DNA of 64,000 nt from assembly GCF_021462225.1 (NCBI RefSeq), contig NC_061818.1, positions 15,046,276-15,110,275 of the forward strand. The letters are read 5' to 3'. The notes beneath the pieces are model-generated. The model searched no databases. It had not been told where the DNA came from and worked only from the letters and a program-made list of their open reading frames with translations. Position 1 is the first letter of the stretch. Each line of letters starts with the position of its first letter. A program made the position numbers and the translations under genes. Below are positions 1 through 9,312 of the stretch, in pieces. This DNA is from Girardinichthys multiradiatus (taxonomy: Eukaryota > Chordata > Actinopteri > Cyprinodontiformes > Goodeidae).

Positions 1-832
1 CCATGCGATCATAAACGTGCGCTATTGCACTGTGGATGCCTTGTACCGATTTCAGTTCATATAAAACCGTCTTGGCAATCGTCTTCACTCTGAAGTCATC
101 CGCTTGTATGCTTCGAAGTACCAGAAGATTCTGAATAGCAGGAACAAGTTTGGGGGTTACGAGTCGTCGTACGATGCGTTGAAAGTTGACTTGGTAATAA
201 TCCTCCCCCAGTACCTCCAGGCAATGGTGTTGACGCTGGCTTGGGTGGTTCGTTATACATCCATAGCAGGTTTCTCTGAGATAGTTCAAAGAGGTTATGT
301 TGAATAAATGAAGTATTGCTGTTTTCACCGTATTGATGATGGTGGTTGAGAACCAACCGTCAATTTCATCCTCCTGGTTACTCTCATCCTCTGCTGAAGG
401 CTGAGGGTCCTCCATCGGTTCCAGGGTTTGTGTAGGGGCTTCGGTAGAGGGTGAGTAGCCGGTGGCTACCCCCTCCTCCACGACCACCTTCATGTCTTCA
501 GGCAGGACATTCGCGTCTACAGACTCAGCCATGAATAGCGGTGATGGTGAGCAGAGGTCTGGAGAAAGCGGTAGATATTTCATGTTGTATCCTGTAGGTG
601 ATGCAGGACTGTAGTGGTTCTCTGAGAATGAGGATGTTGAGGTGGATGGTGAGAAGAGGTCAGGGGAAGGCGGATGATATGGTCCAATGTTGAAGCTTTC
701 ATCGTGCTCAGGAGAGAAGTGGATCTCTGCTCGGTGGTTGTAGAGATCCCTGTATGGTGTCGGTCCACTCATTCTCATGATACGATTCTCAATGTCTGTG
801 AGCTTGCAGTTATCCCCCCGTATATATATCAT
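1..832 (-). CDS. Unidentified intronless ORF, partial (runs off left edge)
   Basis: Reading the minus strand from an ATG at 832-830, the frame stays open through at least 277 codons to base 1, so the C-terminus lies outside the window. An in-frame stop lies about 15 codons upstream of the ATG. The first ~100 residues are rich in Ser and Pro, with two related blocks (SPDLFSPS and SPDLCSPSP). An acidic stretch follows, then a hydrophobic/basic C-terminal half with a compact Cys/His cluster (CYGC, then HPSQ, HH and C within ~20 residues). I do not recognise the family. It is the third of three tandem minus-strand frames; only 16 bases separate it from the one before. The lack of introns and the tight spacing are unlike the host genes here. 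It may be a virus-like or large-transposon protein, or a degraded host gene. That the frame is real is likely; the identity is unknown. Confidence 0.5.
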   Translation of the reverse strand, partial: MIYIRGDNCKLTDIENRIMRMSGPTPYRDLYNHRAEIHFSPEHDESFNIGPYHPPSPDLFSPSTSTSSFSENHYSPASPTGYNMKYLPLSPDLCSPSPLFMAESVDANVLPEDMKVVVEEGVATGYSPSTEAPTQTLEPMEDPQPSAEDESNQEDEIDGWFSTTIINTVKTAILHLFNITSLNYLRETCYGCITNHPSQRQHHCLEVLGEDYYQVNFQRIVRRLVTPKLVPAIQNLLVLRSIQADDFRVKTIAKTVLYELKSVQGIHSAIAHVYDRM

Positions 833-848
833 AGGAAGATGCGTGTCC

Positions 849-1196
849 TCAGAAGAGGGTTCGTTCTAAACGTAAAACAGGAAACGTCAACGTTTTTTTC
901 ACTGACATGACATCGATCCAACTTTGTGACTTGTGGAAAAGGTTGGAAAGACGATGTCCAATTTCACTCATCTTCTCTGCCCAAGCTTCAAACGGCAGAG
1001 CCAGCATTGTCTTGAATACGCCGCAGTCCTGATTGAAAGCCTCCAACACAAACAGATCTGAGGGACTCGTCCGGTTGTTCCTGCGTCTGCTTGCCCGAAA
1101 AGACCAGCTGCCATTTGCTGTGGTTTTTGACCCCCACACTGCGCTAAAGAGAGGTTCTCTCTCAGCTATTTCAACATCGGATGGTATATGAAACAT
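849..1196 (-). CDS. Unidentified small intronless ORF (115 aa)
   Basis: A 115-codon minus-strand frame lies between two other frames on the same strand, with gaps of 30 and 16 bases. The product would be basic in its middle (a run of Arg/Asn around residues 35-42) and has no clear signal peptide or membrane segment. No known domain is recognised. Its main support is position: three non-overlapping frames in one direction with almost no spacing, in sequence that is less AT-rich than the flanks. It could be a coding exon or small gene of an integrated compact element. It could also be chance, since 115 codons is not decisive alone. Confidence 0.35.
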   Translation of the reverse strand: MFHIPSDVEIAEREPLFSAVWGSKTTANGSWSFRASRRRNNRTSPSDLFVLEAFNQDCGVFKTMLALPFEAWAEKMSEIGHRLSNLFHKSQSWIDVMSVKKTLTFPVLRLERTLF

Positions 1197-1226
1197 TCTC
1201 GCCCGTTTTACAGGTCGAGGAGACAG

Positions 1227-1814
1227 TTAATTTTCTTCTTCTTCTTCTTCTTCTTCTTCTTCCTCCCTCTCCTGCCTTGAGACTGTTTCAGGGCTATCAT
1301 TAAGGTGCGGGATTGCAAGCCTTAACACAGCCCAGTCGCTGTGGGTGAGAGTACACAGAGCCAGTGATCCATTAAATACCTCATCTTGATCCAATTGATA
1401 CAGGCAAAGCTCTCCTATTTCATACATGAAAATATAACCCCAGCTGCCAACCAGGCCATATGGCTCCAAAGACCATTCTTTCTGCAGAGTGTCGAACGGG
1501 GGTCTTTGTACCCTGCAGATGTAGTATGTTGATTTCTTAGGAGCATTCAATTCACGGGATGAATACTGGTAGACGGTCACTGGGGTTTCGCACAGAACTG
1601 ACATACCTCTTGGCCGAACCGAGGTCTGATTTTCAACCATGGTTGTTGAAGTTGATTTTGGATCCTCATCATCGGTAGAGTATGTCATGACCGGAATTCC
1701 GATAGGTATCTCCGTTGAGGAAGTATATGATGCAGTTGCTTGTTCATCATCATCATCTTGGCACGCGTTGCGTTTCTCCTCCGCTTGACGATAAACTCTC
1801 TTAACTCTAGCCAT
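1227..1814 (-). CDS. Unidentified intronless ORF with poly-Glu tail (195 aa)
   Basis: The minus-strand frame is open from 1928, but the likelier start is the ATG at 1814 (product beginning MARVKRVYRQ). Upstream of it lies a TATA-like TTTAAATA at about 1877-1884. The N-terminus is basic, followed by an Asp/Glu-rich stretch, a Ser/Thr-rich stretch, and a more globular half rich in Tyr, Trp and Leu. The C-terminus is a run of about 11 Glu encoded by a GAA repeat at about 1231-1262. No family is recognised. It is the first frame of the tandem block 1814 to 1. The repeat-encoded tail may have been extended by slippage. Confidence 0.45.
   Translation of the reverse strand: MARVKRVYRQAEEKRNACQDDDDEQATASYTSSTEIPIGIPVMTYSTDDEDPKSTSTTMVENQTSVRPRGMSVLCETPVTVYQYSSRELNAPKKSTYYICRVQRPPFDTLQKEWSLEPYGLVGSWGYIFMYEIGELCLYQLDQDEVFNGSLALCTLTHSDWAVLRLAIPHLNDSPETVSRQEREEEEEEEEEEEN
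1231..1262. repeat. (CTT)n/(GAA)n microsatellite inside an ORF
   Basis: An almost pure trinucleotide tract of about ten units. On the minus strand it encodes the poly-Glu end of the 1227-1814 frame, so length changes here would be frame-preserving. Confidence 0.85.
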
Positions 1815-1928
1815 TGTTGAACGGGTGTTCTTTTTTCCAATGAATGCTGCATGTAAAGTGCAGAGTTTTATCTCTGTATTTAAAGTAAACACTAAGGCAC
1901 GCCCTATTGTTTTCATTGGGTTATTCAA

Positions 1929-2260
1929 GGTTTAACGATGCTTACAAACACACCCCCTCTATTTTTAATTGGTGCTGATGCCAAACAGTTTCCGATAATA
2001 CCATATTTGTCTTGTTCTATTTATAACAAACACACCCCTGTGTTTTAATTGACTCATTTAAGGTATCGCCCCTAATGACGACAAGCAATCAGCATCCACG
2101 GTTACGCCCCCTTGGACACACCACCTGCTTGACCACGTGACCTCCTGCCCACATGGCAACCACATGGCGCCCACATGGCCCCCACCGGAAATCCTACCCT
2201 CACTGGAAGTCCCACCCACCTGTCAAAACGTTTGATGAAAGGGTGTACTTAAATTCTCTA
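1929..2260. other. Non-coding flank of the ORF block with short direct repeats
   Basis: No gene is seen. Two imperfect copies of a ~28-base unit (ACAAACACACCCC, then a T-rich end with TTTTAATTG) lie at about 1944-1972 and 2025-2052. Three copies of CCACATGGC follow at about 2149-2179. From about 2262 the sequence becomes similar to 8957 onward (the 3' flank of VH-d), so the foreign-looking block ends near here. No convincing terminal inverted repeat was found. Confidence 0.4.
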
Positions 2261-2515
2261 ACAGGGCCTTAATATATAAGAATACTTTCATCTAATACAT
2301 GTATTTTCTCTTCAATCCTGATTTAAAGTGGTAATTAGAATACTGATCCAAAATGAGTTTAAAATCTTCTTTACCCCTCAGATCATCAGAGATGTCTCTA
2401 TCTAAATGTGTTTGTTGTGACAGATAAATGGTGTTAGTGCTCCCCCTGTGGTGGCTTCATGTTAAAACTCTTCATGCACTGCAGAGTTTGTGTTCAGTGT
2501 TTCTACTTTCTGTGT

Positions 2516-2522
2516 CACTGTG
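2516..2522 (-). promoter_or_regulatory. RSS heptamer of VH-a
   Basis: A consensus CACAGTG (minus strand) abuts the V coding end. A weak nonamer (CACAAACTC or ACACAAACT) is spaced 22-23 bases away, as expected for a 23-type V signal. Confidence 0.85.
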
Positions 2523-2954
2523 GATCTTGAGCACAATAATAAACAGCAGAATCCTCAGCTGTCAGACTGTTCATCTGCAGATACACCTGACTTCTGCTGT
2601 TGTCTCTGGAGATGGTGAACCGGTTTCTCACCGAGTCAGAGTAGTAGATGTTCCTGCTGTCATCGCTGATCCAAGCAATCCACTCCAGTCCTTTTCCAGC
2701 TGCCTGTCTGATCCAAGCTGTGGGGTAATTCAGAGAATAAGAGACCTGACAGTTGATGGTCAGACACTGACCCGGCTGCAGAGTCACAGAGACTGGCTGT
2801 GTCAGCTGTTCACACTTTACATCTGTAGAAAGAGAAAATGTATAGCAGAATGAGAATAGTAAACTAACAGTTTTGTGTGATGATACTGTAAATATTTCTT
2901 AAGAGACTCACCGGATCCAGCAGCCAACAGCAGCAGCAGAGCTACAGATAACAT
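2523..2954 (-). CDS. IGH V segment VH-a (leader + V exon), apparently functional, chimeric
   Basis: Leader exon 2912-2954 (43 nt, begins [10 protein letters not shown]) ends on a G|GTGAGT donor in phase 1. V exon 2523-2822 starts after CTACAG and stays open to the RSS. FR1 has CEQLTQ and its Cys, FR2 has [14 protein letters not shown]3 has [19 protein letters not shown] and the end is AVYYCA. The RSS follows directly: heptamer CACAGTG (2516-2522) and a nonamer-like CACAAACTC after ~23 bases. The 5' half (leader, FR1) matches the family of VH-b, VH-e and VH-f. The 3' half (FR2 to RSS and beyond to ~2262) matches VH-d instead. On rearrangement it would encode the variable domain of an Ig heavy chain. 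All key residues are intact, so it is probably usable. Confidence 0.9.
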
Positions 2955-3040
2955 GCTGGTGGTGAAGGTGATCTGGTGGGAGCTTCTCTTCTTCTGCAGC
3001 TGACAGCATCAGATCAAGAATTTAAAACCTGACTCTTCTG

Positions 3041-3048
3041 ATTTGCAT
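3041..3048 (-). promoter_or_regulatory. Ig promoter octamer for VH-a
   Basis: ATGCAAAT on the minus strand, about 87 bases upstream of the VH-a leader ATG. This is the standard Oct-factor site of Ig V promoters. The same octamer with matching flanks occurs upstream of VH-b at 5109-5116. Confidence 0.85.
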
Positions 3049-3327
3049 AATACCAAACCATCCCCTTCAGAAACACTCGAATAAATAATAAATAGGAATT
3101 CAAAATGAAAATCAGAAGGGGCAAGAAATTATTAATACAAAACAGGTGTACCAATTTACAGTAAAACAAGAAGTAAAATGAAGATTTACTTCTTGTCTTT
3201 ATTTATTTATAAGATATTGATAAAATTTATGTAATGATTCTAAAAGTGCCCTTTTTACCCAAATATAAAATGTATTTTTAATAGTCACCTCAAACTAGAA
3301 TAAAAGGTAAAAATCATTTATTCTTAC

Positions 3328-3382
3328 AGATCCAGTTTCCTGACAAGATGAGTAAAGCAATGATGATCCTAGATCTGATCAT
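3328..3382 (-). other. Orphan but intact V leader exon of the VH-d family
   Basis: On the minus strand an ATG at 3382 opens an 18-codon hydrophobic leader (MIRSRIIIALLIL...) ending in phase 1 at T|GTAAGA, an intact donor. It and its upstream flank (to ~3500) match the leader region of VH-d (9712-9781). No VH-d-type FR1 follows; the next V material downstream is the VH-a leader and exon. It can be a leftover of the V gene whose 5' part was replaced to give VH-a. Phase and donor would allow splicing to the VH-a V exon at 2822. Confidence 0.75.
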
Positions 3383-4560
3383 TGTACAAATCTTTTGTCT
3401 CTGCTCAGTCAGCAGTGAGTTTATCGCTGATTTACTGCAGCTCTTCAACTTTGTAACTGAGACATAAAGATGGAAGCAATAAGAGTTTGCATCAACTGTT
3501 CCCCTTAAGAAAAAATGTGTTTATCCTGTCTATATTTAGCAAATAATTATAATTTAAGATTGTTGTATTGCAAATAAATGTTTTTCAGGTTAAACAGCAC
3601 ATTTGAGTAAATTAACATTTTACTTAAGATTAATGTGAGGCATAAACATTTAAAGTCTGGTGAAAGGAAATTTTATTAGCAACCACACATTTGATTTTGT
3701 ATTCTCTTGGATTCTAAAATTTCAGACTTCTCTTTTTACTGTTTTAATCATTAAAACATAATTATAAAGGAACAAAATTATGGTTTAAATATTTTGGTTC
3801 AGATTCTCAAACTTATTGGGTAAAACAAGAAAATGTGTTTTTTTTAAAACATAAATCTTGACAGGACCCTTGAAAAACAGGAAATCCAAAGTCAAGATCT
3901 CATCTGTTCAGTTTCTGTGTCATTTTTCCACCTTCTGTTTACAGTGTTTTTTTCAAAGCCTCTTTTTATATACGGATCTCTGTGGTTCTAATAAAACACC
4001 AGTTTAATCTTCCTGGTTTTTGAGAAACACTAAACTGTTAAGTCAGCATTAAAAATTAAACAAAGAACGCATTAATAAAGAGATAATGGTTAAGAGGAAA
4101 ACATCCGTTGTAAAATGCCTCTAAACCCTTGCATGTACTTAGAGGTCAGAAGTCCTTGAGTGAAATTATTATTGGAGAATTTTCTTAATAGTGATTTATT
4201 TTAGATATTGGCAGTTTTATATAGTTAAAAGCAACTCTGTTCATGCTTGTTTTTATGTCCTCTTTCAACTCTATTTATATTGTGACGTCTAAATCCAGCC
4301 TTTATTTAGAACAATAAAACTGTTATCTTTTAAAGATCTACAAATCAATCATGCAAACTTCTTCAGTTACTTCAAGGTAAATTAGAAAACTATTTCTAAA
4401 CATTTTATCTCTCTATATATCTTAATGCATTCTTTTTTTCTTTTAGCTATGTGTCAACTTGTCAGTGTTTACATAACTATGTTTTAATTTATCCTTTTAA
4501 AGAAAATCATATTCATAGAGCTCCTACTCTGGTGGTTTCATATAATGTGCTCAGGCTCTG
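3383..4560. other. Intergenic, AT-rich
   Basis: Apart from the first ~120 bases, which match the VH-d upstream flank, I see no gene, RSS or repeat family here. The sequence is AT-rich with many short T and A runs. Confidence 0.5.
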
Positions 4561-4563
4561 AGG

Positions 4564-4602
4564 GGTTTTTGTGCAGCTCTGCTGCTTGTTTGTATGACTG
4601 TG
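4564..4602 (-). promoter_or_regulatory. 23-type RSS of VH-b
   Basis: Heptamer CACAGTC, 23-base spacer, nonamer ACAAAAACC on the minus strand. The nonamer is perfect; the heptamer deviates at its last position. Confidence 0.85.
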
Positions 4603-5022
4603 GCTATCTGGAACAATAATACACAGCTGAATCCTCAGGCTGCAAGTTCTGTCCTTTCAGAGTCACTGTTTTACTAGCAGAGTCTGCATTGATACTGAAT
4701 TTGTTCTTCAGTGAATCTTTGTAGTGTGAACCTCTACCAACATGTAGTCCAATCCACTCCAGTCCTTTCCCTGCAGGCTGTCTGATCCAGCCTGACCAGT
4801 AGCTGTTCAGATCATAAGAGACCTCACAGCTGATGGTTAGATGCTGACCTGGCTGCATAGTCACAGAGGCTGACTGTGTCAGCTGTTCACACTTCACACC
4901 TGTGGAGAAAAAGATTGAGTTTTACTAAAATATCAGTCAGTTTAGTGTGATCATGCTGTAAATGTTTCTGTCTCGCTGAGACTCACAGGATCCAGCAGCA
5001 GCAGCACAGCTACAGAGATCAT
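4603..5022 (-). pseudogene. IGH V segment VH-b, leader out of frame
   Basis: V exon 4603-4899 is open through CEQLTQ, the FR1 Cys, [14 protein letters not shown] and SAVYYCSR. The last codon before the RSS is TAG, which V(D)J trimming could remove. The heptamer is CACAGTC (4596-4602, last base non-consensus), with a 23-base spacer and a perfect ACAAAAACC nonamer (4564-4572). The leader exon from ATG 5022 to the T|GTGAGT donor at 4987 is 36 nt, phase 0. The sister leaders are 40 or 43 nt, phase 1. Spliced normally, the V exon would be read GTG TGA, an immediate stop. An octamer promoter is present at 5109-5116. Called a pseudogene on the leader frameshift, unless another donor or start is used. 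Confidence 0.75.
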
Positions 5023-7959: not shown

Positions 7960-9312
7960 CCATTTATAGTTGACTGCCTGGAGGTTCACTTTGAATATAG
8001 GGAGGGCCAAAGATCAGGTTTTGCTGTTGATATCAATTTTCATGAATAATGAAAGCGATACGATCTTAAAGCATCATAGTAAAAGTTTCTCAGTGCTTTT
8101 TCTACCAACAGTGATGCTGTAGCCAAGAGCTCCATGTAATGTGAGTTTCTACAGACCAGTTAACTACAGGTTCAGATTAAATTTGTGTGATTAGAATTAC
8201 ATTAAATGTAAAAGAAAAGCTGGATTTGAGTTTGGGACTATCTTGTTCCGTATTCGGTGTCACCGACAACTATGTTTTCTGCTAACTAATAAAAGCTGTG
8301 AATTTTATTTTTCTTATTTATTTTTTGTTGTGTTTTTTTAATAAGAGGTCAGTTGTCCTGTTAAACAAAAGCCAATATAGAATATTACCTGTACACAGCA
8401 TGTATATAATAAGCGTTTCTGTTAATAAAGCTTTCTGTCTGACATCAGGAAGGTGCATTTAGAGTCATTTCATTTCTGTATTTTTAAATAATAAAGAGGT
8501 TTTTGTTCTCGCTCTTAATGCAATAATATAATAATATTAGTATTTCTAACAAGTGTGGAGTTCCAACTTAAAAAGGAATAAGATTTTGAATTTTTCTATC
8601 AGTATCAAGGTTTTATGCTGACTTTTGACACACATGCAGGGAAACTCTCAGAAACAATATAGAAGATTTCAATGAATGGTCTCCTTTACTACATTAGCAG
8701 TACTACAATTATGTTATTGCATGCATTATTTAGCTCAGGCACATTCATTTCTACTGTTTACATGAACCAGGCCTTCCCTATAAGAAAGATTAACATTTTC
8801 CCTTCTAAATGACAACAGAGGCTGAGAAGTTTTCAAACTATCACACTCTGGAGCCTATTTCTAAATTGTGCCATTTTCTGAGAAAACCTGCATCACCTTT
8901 AGCAGAACTTTTAGCAGAACTAAACTTTTATATTTCCACAAGAAAATATTGTGGTGTTAACAGGACCTAAATATATAAGAATACTTTCATCTGATGCATG
9001 TATTATCTCTTGAATGCTGATGTAATCTAGTCACTAAAAAACTGAAAAACTAAATAATGCAAAAACCGCTTATAAAAGAAAAGATTTAAAAATCTTCTGA
9101 ATGGTCTACAAGGCACCGAAAGATTTTAGGCGTACAACGTCACAATGTTATTTCTCCAATGTGAACCTTCTTGATCTCTCAGATCATCTGAGATGTGTCT
9201 ACCTAAATATTTGCTGACAGATAAATGGTGTTAGTGCTCCCCAAGTGGTGGTTTCATGTTGAAACTCTTCATGCACTGAAGAGTTTTTGTTCAGTGTTTC
9301 TACTTTCTGTGT
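7960..9312. other. Intergenic; right part duplicated
   Basis: No gene. From about 8957 (TAACAGGACCTAAATATA) to the VH-d RSS the sequence matches 2262-2515, the same flank of VH-a, so this is part of a duplicated V unit. The 7950-8040 stretch matches about 11300-11420. Confidence 0.5.

Follow-up and report, generated by a model that had tools for sequence, protein, structure and literature searches.

Evidence for one end of an endogenous Maverick (Polinton) beside an immunoglobulin V segment in the teleost Girardinichthys multiradiatus

Immunoglobulin V genes of Girardinichthys multiradiatus lie within the 64-kb stretch of DNA analysed here (the window, C25:15046276-15110275, from an assembly of 1.15 Gb in 72 contigs), and at its left edge they adjoin a block of open reading frames (ORFs). 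The initial annotation described this block as three tandem minus-strand frames separated by 16 and 30 bases, headed by a TATA-like element and with the first frame running past the window edge, and attributed it to a compact DNA virus-like element or a large transposon and not to host genes. We recovered all three frames (277, 115 and 195 aa) in the same places and with the same gaps, and the attribution was well founded: positions 1-2259 of the window are almost certainly one end of an endogenous Maverick (Polinton), inserted beside an immunoglobulin V segment. The element continues to 2259 instead of ending at 1928, as first annotated, and its frames represent two genes, here called A and B, rather than three separate products.

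Lack of conservation, which the initial annotation had named as evidence to the contrary, is not what we found. A protein database search returned relatives at expectation values (E) reaching 6e-109 for ORF1 (P0001) and 4e-98 for ORF3 (P0003), and these two are therefore not chance frames. At E up to 1 there were 13 relatives for ORF1 and 18 for ORF3, all uncharacterised, and the three window frames matched no Pfam family. The named relatives are mostly from goodeid fishes (Goodea, 89%; Xenoophorus, 93%; Crenichthys, Ataeniobius and others), with Nibea and Collichthys also among those of ORF3, and a profile search with the ORF1 family yielded 21 proteins at E up to 0.01, including some from Takifugu, Epinephelus and Nerophis. 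Two relatives, P0017 (337 aa) and P0018 (324 aa), are single proteins spanning both ORF3 and ORF2, which in the window share a reading frame with an in-frame stop between them. Because these proteins run through both frames, ORF3 and ORF2 are, judging from these relatives, the 5′ and 3′ halves of one gene (gene A), interrupted in the window copy. The second assembled homologue of the locus, on contig C24, shows zero differences from C25 over 1131 to 1317, and the stop in gene A is therefore common to both. ORF3 measures 195 aa from the ATG at 1814, or 233 aa with TTG at 1928 as the start, and the TATA-like TATTTAAA, read by eye, stands ~63 bases before that ATG. Gene B is ORF1, cut by the window edge, and its 3′ end is visible on C24. 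The features of the locus are as follows.

1..2259, minus strand: Maverick/Polinton end (very probable), the end common to sister copies; the remainder lies left of the window, in N.
2..832, minus strand, open at the window edge: gene B (ORF1), 277 codons in the window, Cys/His-rich, predicted helical.
849..1196, minus strand: 3′ half of gene A (ORF2), covered by the intact relatives P0017 and P0018.
1227..1814, minus strand: 5′ half of gene A (ORF3), in the frame of ORF2 with the in-frame stop between; same on C24.
1877..1884, minus strand: TATA-like TATTTAAA ahead of gene A, by eye; same letters in a short copy on C20.
2028..2259, unstranded: terminal inverted repeat, with bounds taken from the other ends of two full-size copies.
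2256..2259, unstranded: end motif CTCT (AGAG on the opposite strand).
2260..2265, unstranded: AACAGG, presumed copy of a 6-bp target duplication, by analogy with three other copies; host homology resumes here.
2515..2787, minus strand: nearest immunoglobulin V exon (V-set; Pfam E 1.4e-11).
8958..9045, unstranded: paralogous V-gene flank without insertion, 83% identity over 88 bases from window 2259/2260.

No core gene was detected within the 64-kb window; the ATPase, polymerase, integrase and terminal repeats that the initial annotation proposed to look for were recovered from sister copies rather than from the window copy, and the capsid, likewise on its list, follows from gene order only. 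In the sister copy L022 (C16), gene B is followed by a 362-aa integrase, frames of 257, 147 and 435 aa, and a 180-aa adenain-like protease, while the opposite strand carries frames of 276 and 113 aa, an A32-like ATPase and a B-family polymerase. The two modules face the centre, with integrase to protease on the plus strand and polymerase to the 276-aa frame on the minus strand. Pfam domains support these assignments: rve (PF00665, E 6.9e-12) and Chromo (PF00385, E 3.9e-07) in the integrase, Pox_A32 (E 2.7e-08) in the ATPase, Peptidase_C5 (E 5.7e-06) in the protease, and DNA_pol_B_2 (PF03175, E 4.2e-09) over part of the polymerase frame, which is predicted to be of the protein-primed type. The 435- and 257-aa frames sit where the major and minor capsid proteins are expected and, from gene position and order alone, are presumed to encode them. 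In a database gene model of Ameca splendens (P0032), the beginning of gene A is fused to a segment that, by eye, nearly equals the L022 protease frame, and this model appears to be an annotation mixing two Maverick genes.

The copies are homologous up to approximately window base 2259 and divergent beyond it. Far ends were found for two of the four full-size copies tried, and their terminal inverted repeats comprise 234 and 242 aligned columns at 93.6 and 92.6% identity. All three copies with both ends found are flanked by perfect 6-bp target duplications, namely CAGTTT (15,803 bp), AACGTT (15,851 bp) and AATATT (3,182 bp; lengths from coordinates). In the window copy, only one side of the duplication is visible, its partner lying in the unseen part. 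The homology to the paralogous V-gene flank starts exactly at the element edge, 2259/2260, and 8958..9045 therefore provides an unoccupied reference site. Further V-gene-like matches were seen on the opposite strand, ~2.6 Mb from the window cluster (C25:17637245-18142892 and C24:16926937-17432726).

This architecture corresponds to that of vertebrate Mavericks/Polintons (Barreat and Katzourakis 2021, PMC8097293), which, in the parts of that report drawn on here, have two inward-facing modules with accessory regions flanking the core ones, an rve integrase next to such a region, a protease, an A32-type ATPase and PolB, as well as inverted repeats, (AG)n ends, 6-bp duplications and a size of 15.8 kb. 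Where those parts give three AG units at the ends, 13 of our 19 end matches have two (AGAG), with AGAGAG in four and the motif not recognised in two, and neither accessory gene, A or B, appears there by name. Adintoviruses (PMC11071296) likewise combine a retrovirus-like integrase bearing a C-terminal chromodomain with an adenovirus-like protease and PolB, and are defined by an N-terminal OTU-like domain of PolB; our comparison covered the integrase, the protease and PolB outside its N-terminal part. The element is thus of a known kind, and what is less ordinary about it is the copy number, a symmetric 3.2-kb mini-copy carrying A and B, and the putative fold of gene A.

First-look candidates for gene A numbered 1,339, and the best of them gave 123 scored places, of which 106 have no stop. 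For the neighbouring integrase, the best of 4,133 candidates gave 113 scored places, spread over 26 of the 72 contigs; 105 of these places have no stop, and 36 share one identical integrase score. Since the places counted are the best-scoring candidates, open frames are over-represented among them, and each C24/C25 pair contributes two counts. The published maximum, as far as the consulted parts of PMC8097293 go, is 38 intact Maverick elements in one genome, as compared with more than 100 open integrase frames here (again with C24/C25 pairs entering twice), an open frame not being proof of an intact element. Three loci that tie in integrase score have 98.9-99.3% identity along ~4 kb, and the window copy matches all 20 fetched copies with a best stretch of 87.5-97.8% identity (median, 95.8). 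All 20 gene-A loci that were fetched contain both A and B, followed in 17 by the beginning of the integrase, which is missing from the stretches examined at L004, L005 and L014. Gene A is open over at least 327 aa in 15 of the 20 loci and gene B over at least 279 aa in 12. The ratio of nonsynonymous to synonymous substitution rates (dN/dS) among copies is 0.575 for gene A (15 copies) and 0.559 for gene B (12 copies), and 0.52-0.72 when the window pieces are compared with the open-framed copies; the gene B frame of L004 (379 aa), longer than the others, may inflate the spread. These values indicate weak constraint, as expected for copies drifting after insertion. Taken together, the copies suggest that this genome holds many Mavericks with open frames, which have spread recently.

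Two observations concern individual sister copies. L001, L003, L005 and L020 carry another end variant, AGAGAGACTAAAG... or AGAGACTAAAG..., then GACCTTTGACCTTAA..., which departs from the window copy past the first ~50 bases and, by its sequence, constitutes a second subfamily of ends. L014 has two equally oriented instances of the end sequence inside ~2 kb, the latter directly after the truncated gene B match, a layout that appears to reflect insertion of one copy into another or recombination between the two.

The 3,182-bp copy on C20 (C20:12614471-12617652; L006, L023) is a Maverick derivative in which genes A (327 aa) and B (297 aa) are open and the first 39 integrase residues are kept. 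Over 469 bp, its right end repeats the left end in inverted orientation at 97.4% identity, a stretch that exceeds the normal repeat in length. Symmetric molecules of this kind are known to arise as side products when replication is protein-primed or hairpin-like. Because it is flanked by a 6-bp duplication, this mini-copy looks as if it had been integrated in the same way as the large ones.

Several points weigh against the Maverick assignment or narrow it. Directly left of the window, C25 continues with 5,000 N (L021 3001-8000), and the core genes of this copy are unseen; C24 has a run of 100 N at the same place (L039 5795-5894), beside an AC-rich repeat. Beyond the C24 run, the L021 flank is recovered at 96% identity, and on both homologues the N runs have the look of an assembly gap. 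Examination of C24:14543500-14549500 detected no Maverick sequence, and therefore no full-size insertion of assembled sequence is located there; the window copy may be truncated. Moreover, two of the four full-size copies showed no far end in the fetched stretch, the presumed capsid frames (435 and 257 aa) match nothing in Pfam, PDB or PHROGs, and the model behind the role proposed below for gene A is of low confidence. Both C24 and C25, which may be sex chromosomes or haplotypes, carry the V locus with this insertion. Between them, window 760-4610 (L033) differs by 25 small indels and six substitutions, 12 and four of which, respectively, fall within the element part, and the indels resemble errors in the assembly of one contig or the other.

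Within the Maverick reading, the window copy could, like the 3.2-kb C20 copy, be a derivative shortened by deletion rather than a full element. A derivative of this type exists in the same genome, and on C24 the assembled flank and the element stand just ~0.6 kb apart across the 100-N run; however, a run of 100 N has no reliable length, 5,000 N occupy the same place on C25, and such shortness was seen in just one of the 20 fetched copies. We regard a deletion derivative as a serious possibility, although short of an even chance. Explanations outside the Mavericks fare far worse. Giant viral elements of the Teratorn type, fusions of a piggyBac transposon and an alloherpesvirus, do occur in teleost genomes, but Teratorn is reported to measure 180 kb as opposed to 15.8 kb here, and the neighbours of genes A and B (integrase, protease and polymerase) are Maverick core genes. 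Independently of size, piggyBac elements duplicate TTAA, instead of which we found CAGTTT, AACGTT and AATATT, and a Teratorn-like origin was rejected as wholly improbable. The idea that the frames belong to a family of compact, intronless host genes next to the antibody locus has nothing in its favour except the open frames themselves; gene A recurs at its 123 places among viral-type genes and the flanking host homology stops at 2259, so that host genes, which the initial annotation had already discounted, deserve virtually no credence.

Under the Maverick reading, general knowledge of these elements suggests that a linear double-stranded DNA virus-like genome would have been copied by the protein-primed polymerase and inserted by the chromodomain-rve integrase. 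The accessory genes are harder to place. A low-confidence model of gene A hints weakly at a Whirly/PUR-like fold, a type built of tandem domains of beta-sheet plus helix (Foldseek best E 0.057), and the protein would then bind single-stranded DNA (ssDNA), although no sequence similarity was detected between gene A and the Whirly, MRP1-MRP2 or PUR-alpha nucleic-acid-binding proteins with which the model was compared. Gene B contains the motif C-x-G-C-x3-H-P-S-Q-x-Q-x2-C-L, its residues invariant in 13 relatives, and going by these residues it might act as a metal-binding accessory factor; its model is helical (predicted local distance difference test score, pLDDT, 72), with no convincing fold match. 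Alternatively, gene A could be a sequence-specific regulator of the promoters of the element rather than a general ssDNA-binding protein. Nothing specific speaks against a regulator, although protein-primed strand-displacement replication makes ssDNA and none of the nine core frames scanned matched a Pfam family of single-stranded DNA-binding proteins; regulation is a credible role, if a somewhat improbable one. More speculative, and on balance unlikely in its entirety, is a scheme in which gene A is a new Whirly/PUR-type ssDNA-binding protein of fish Mavericks that acts with gene B in terminal-repeat replication, so that two-end mini-copies with A and B form and integrate.

The initial annotation considered a virus-like element beside an antibody V cluster unusual. 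Given 113 scored integrase places across 26 of the 72 contigs, this site is not special, and the insertion beside antibody V segments is a marker for haplotype comparison, not a sign of a special relation to antibody genes. An unexplained block of open frames has thus become a named element with an exact end, and its two unnamed accessory genes now come with a testable idea, in which gene A is a candidate ssDNA-binding protein.
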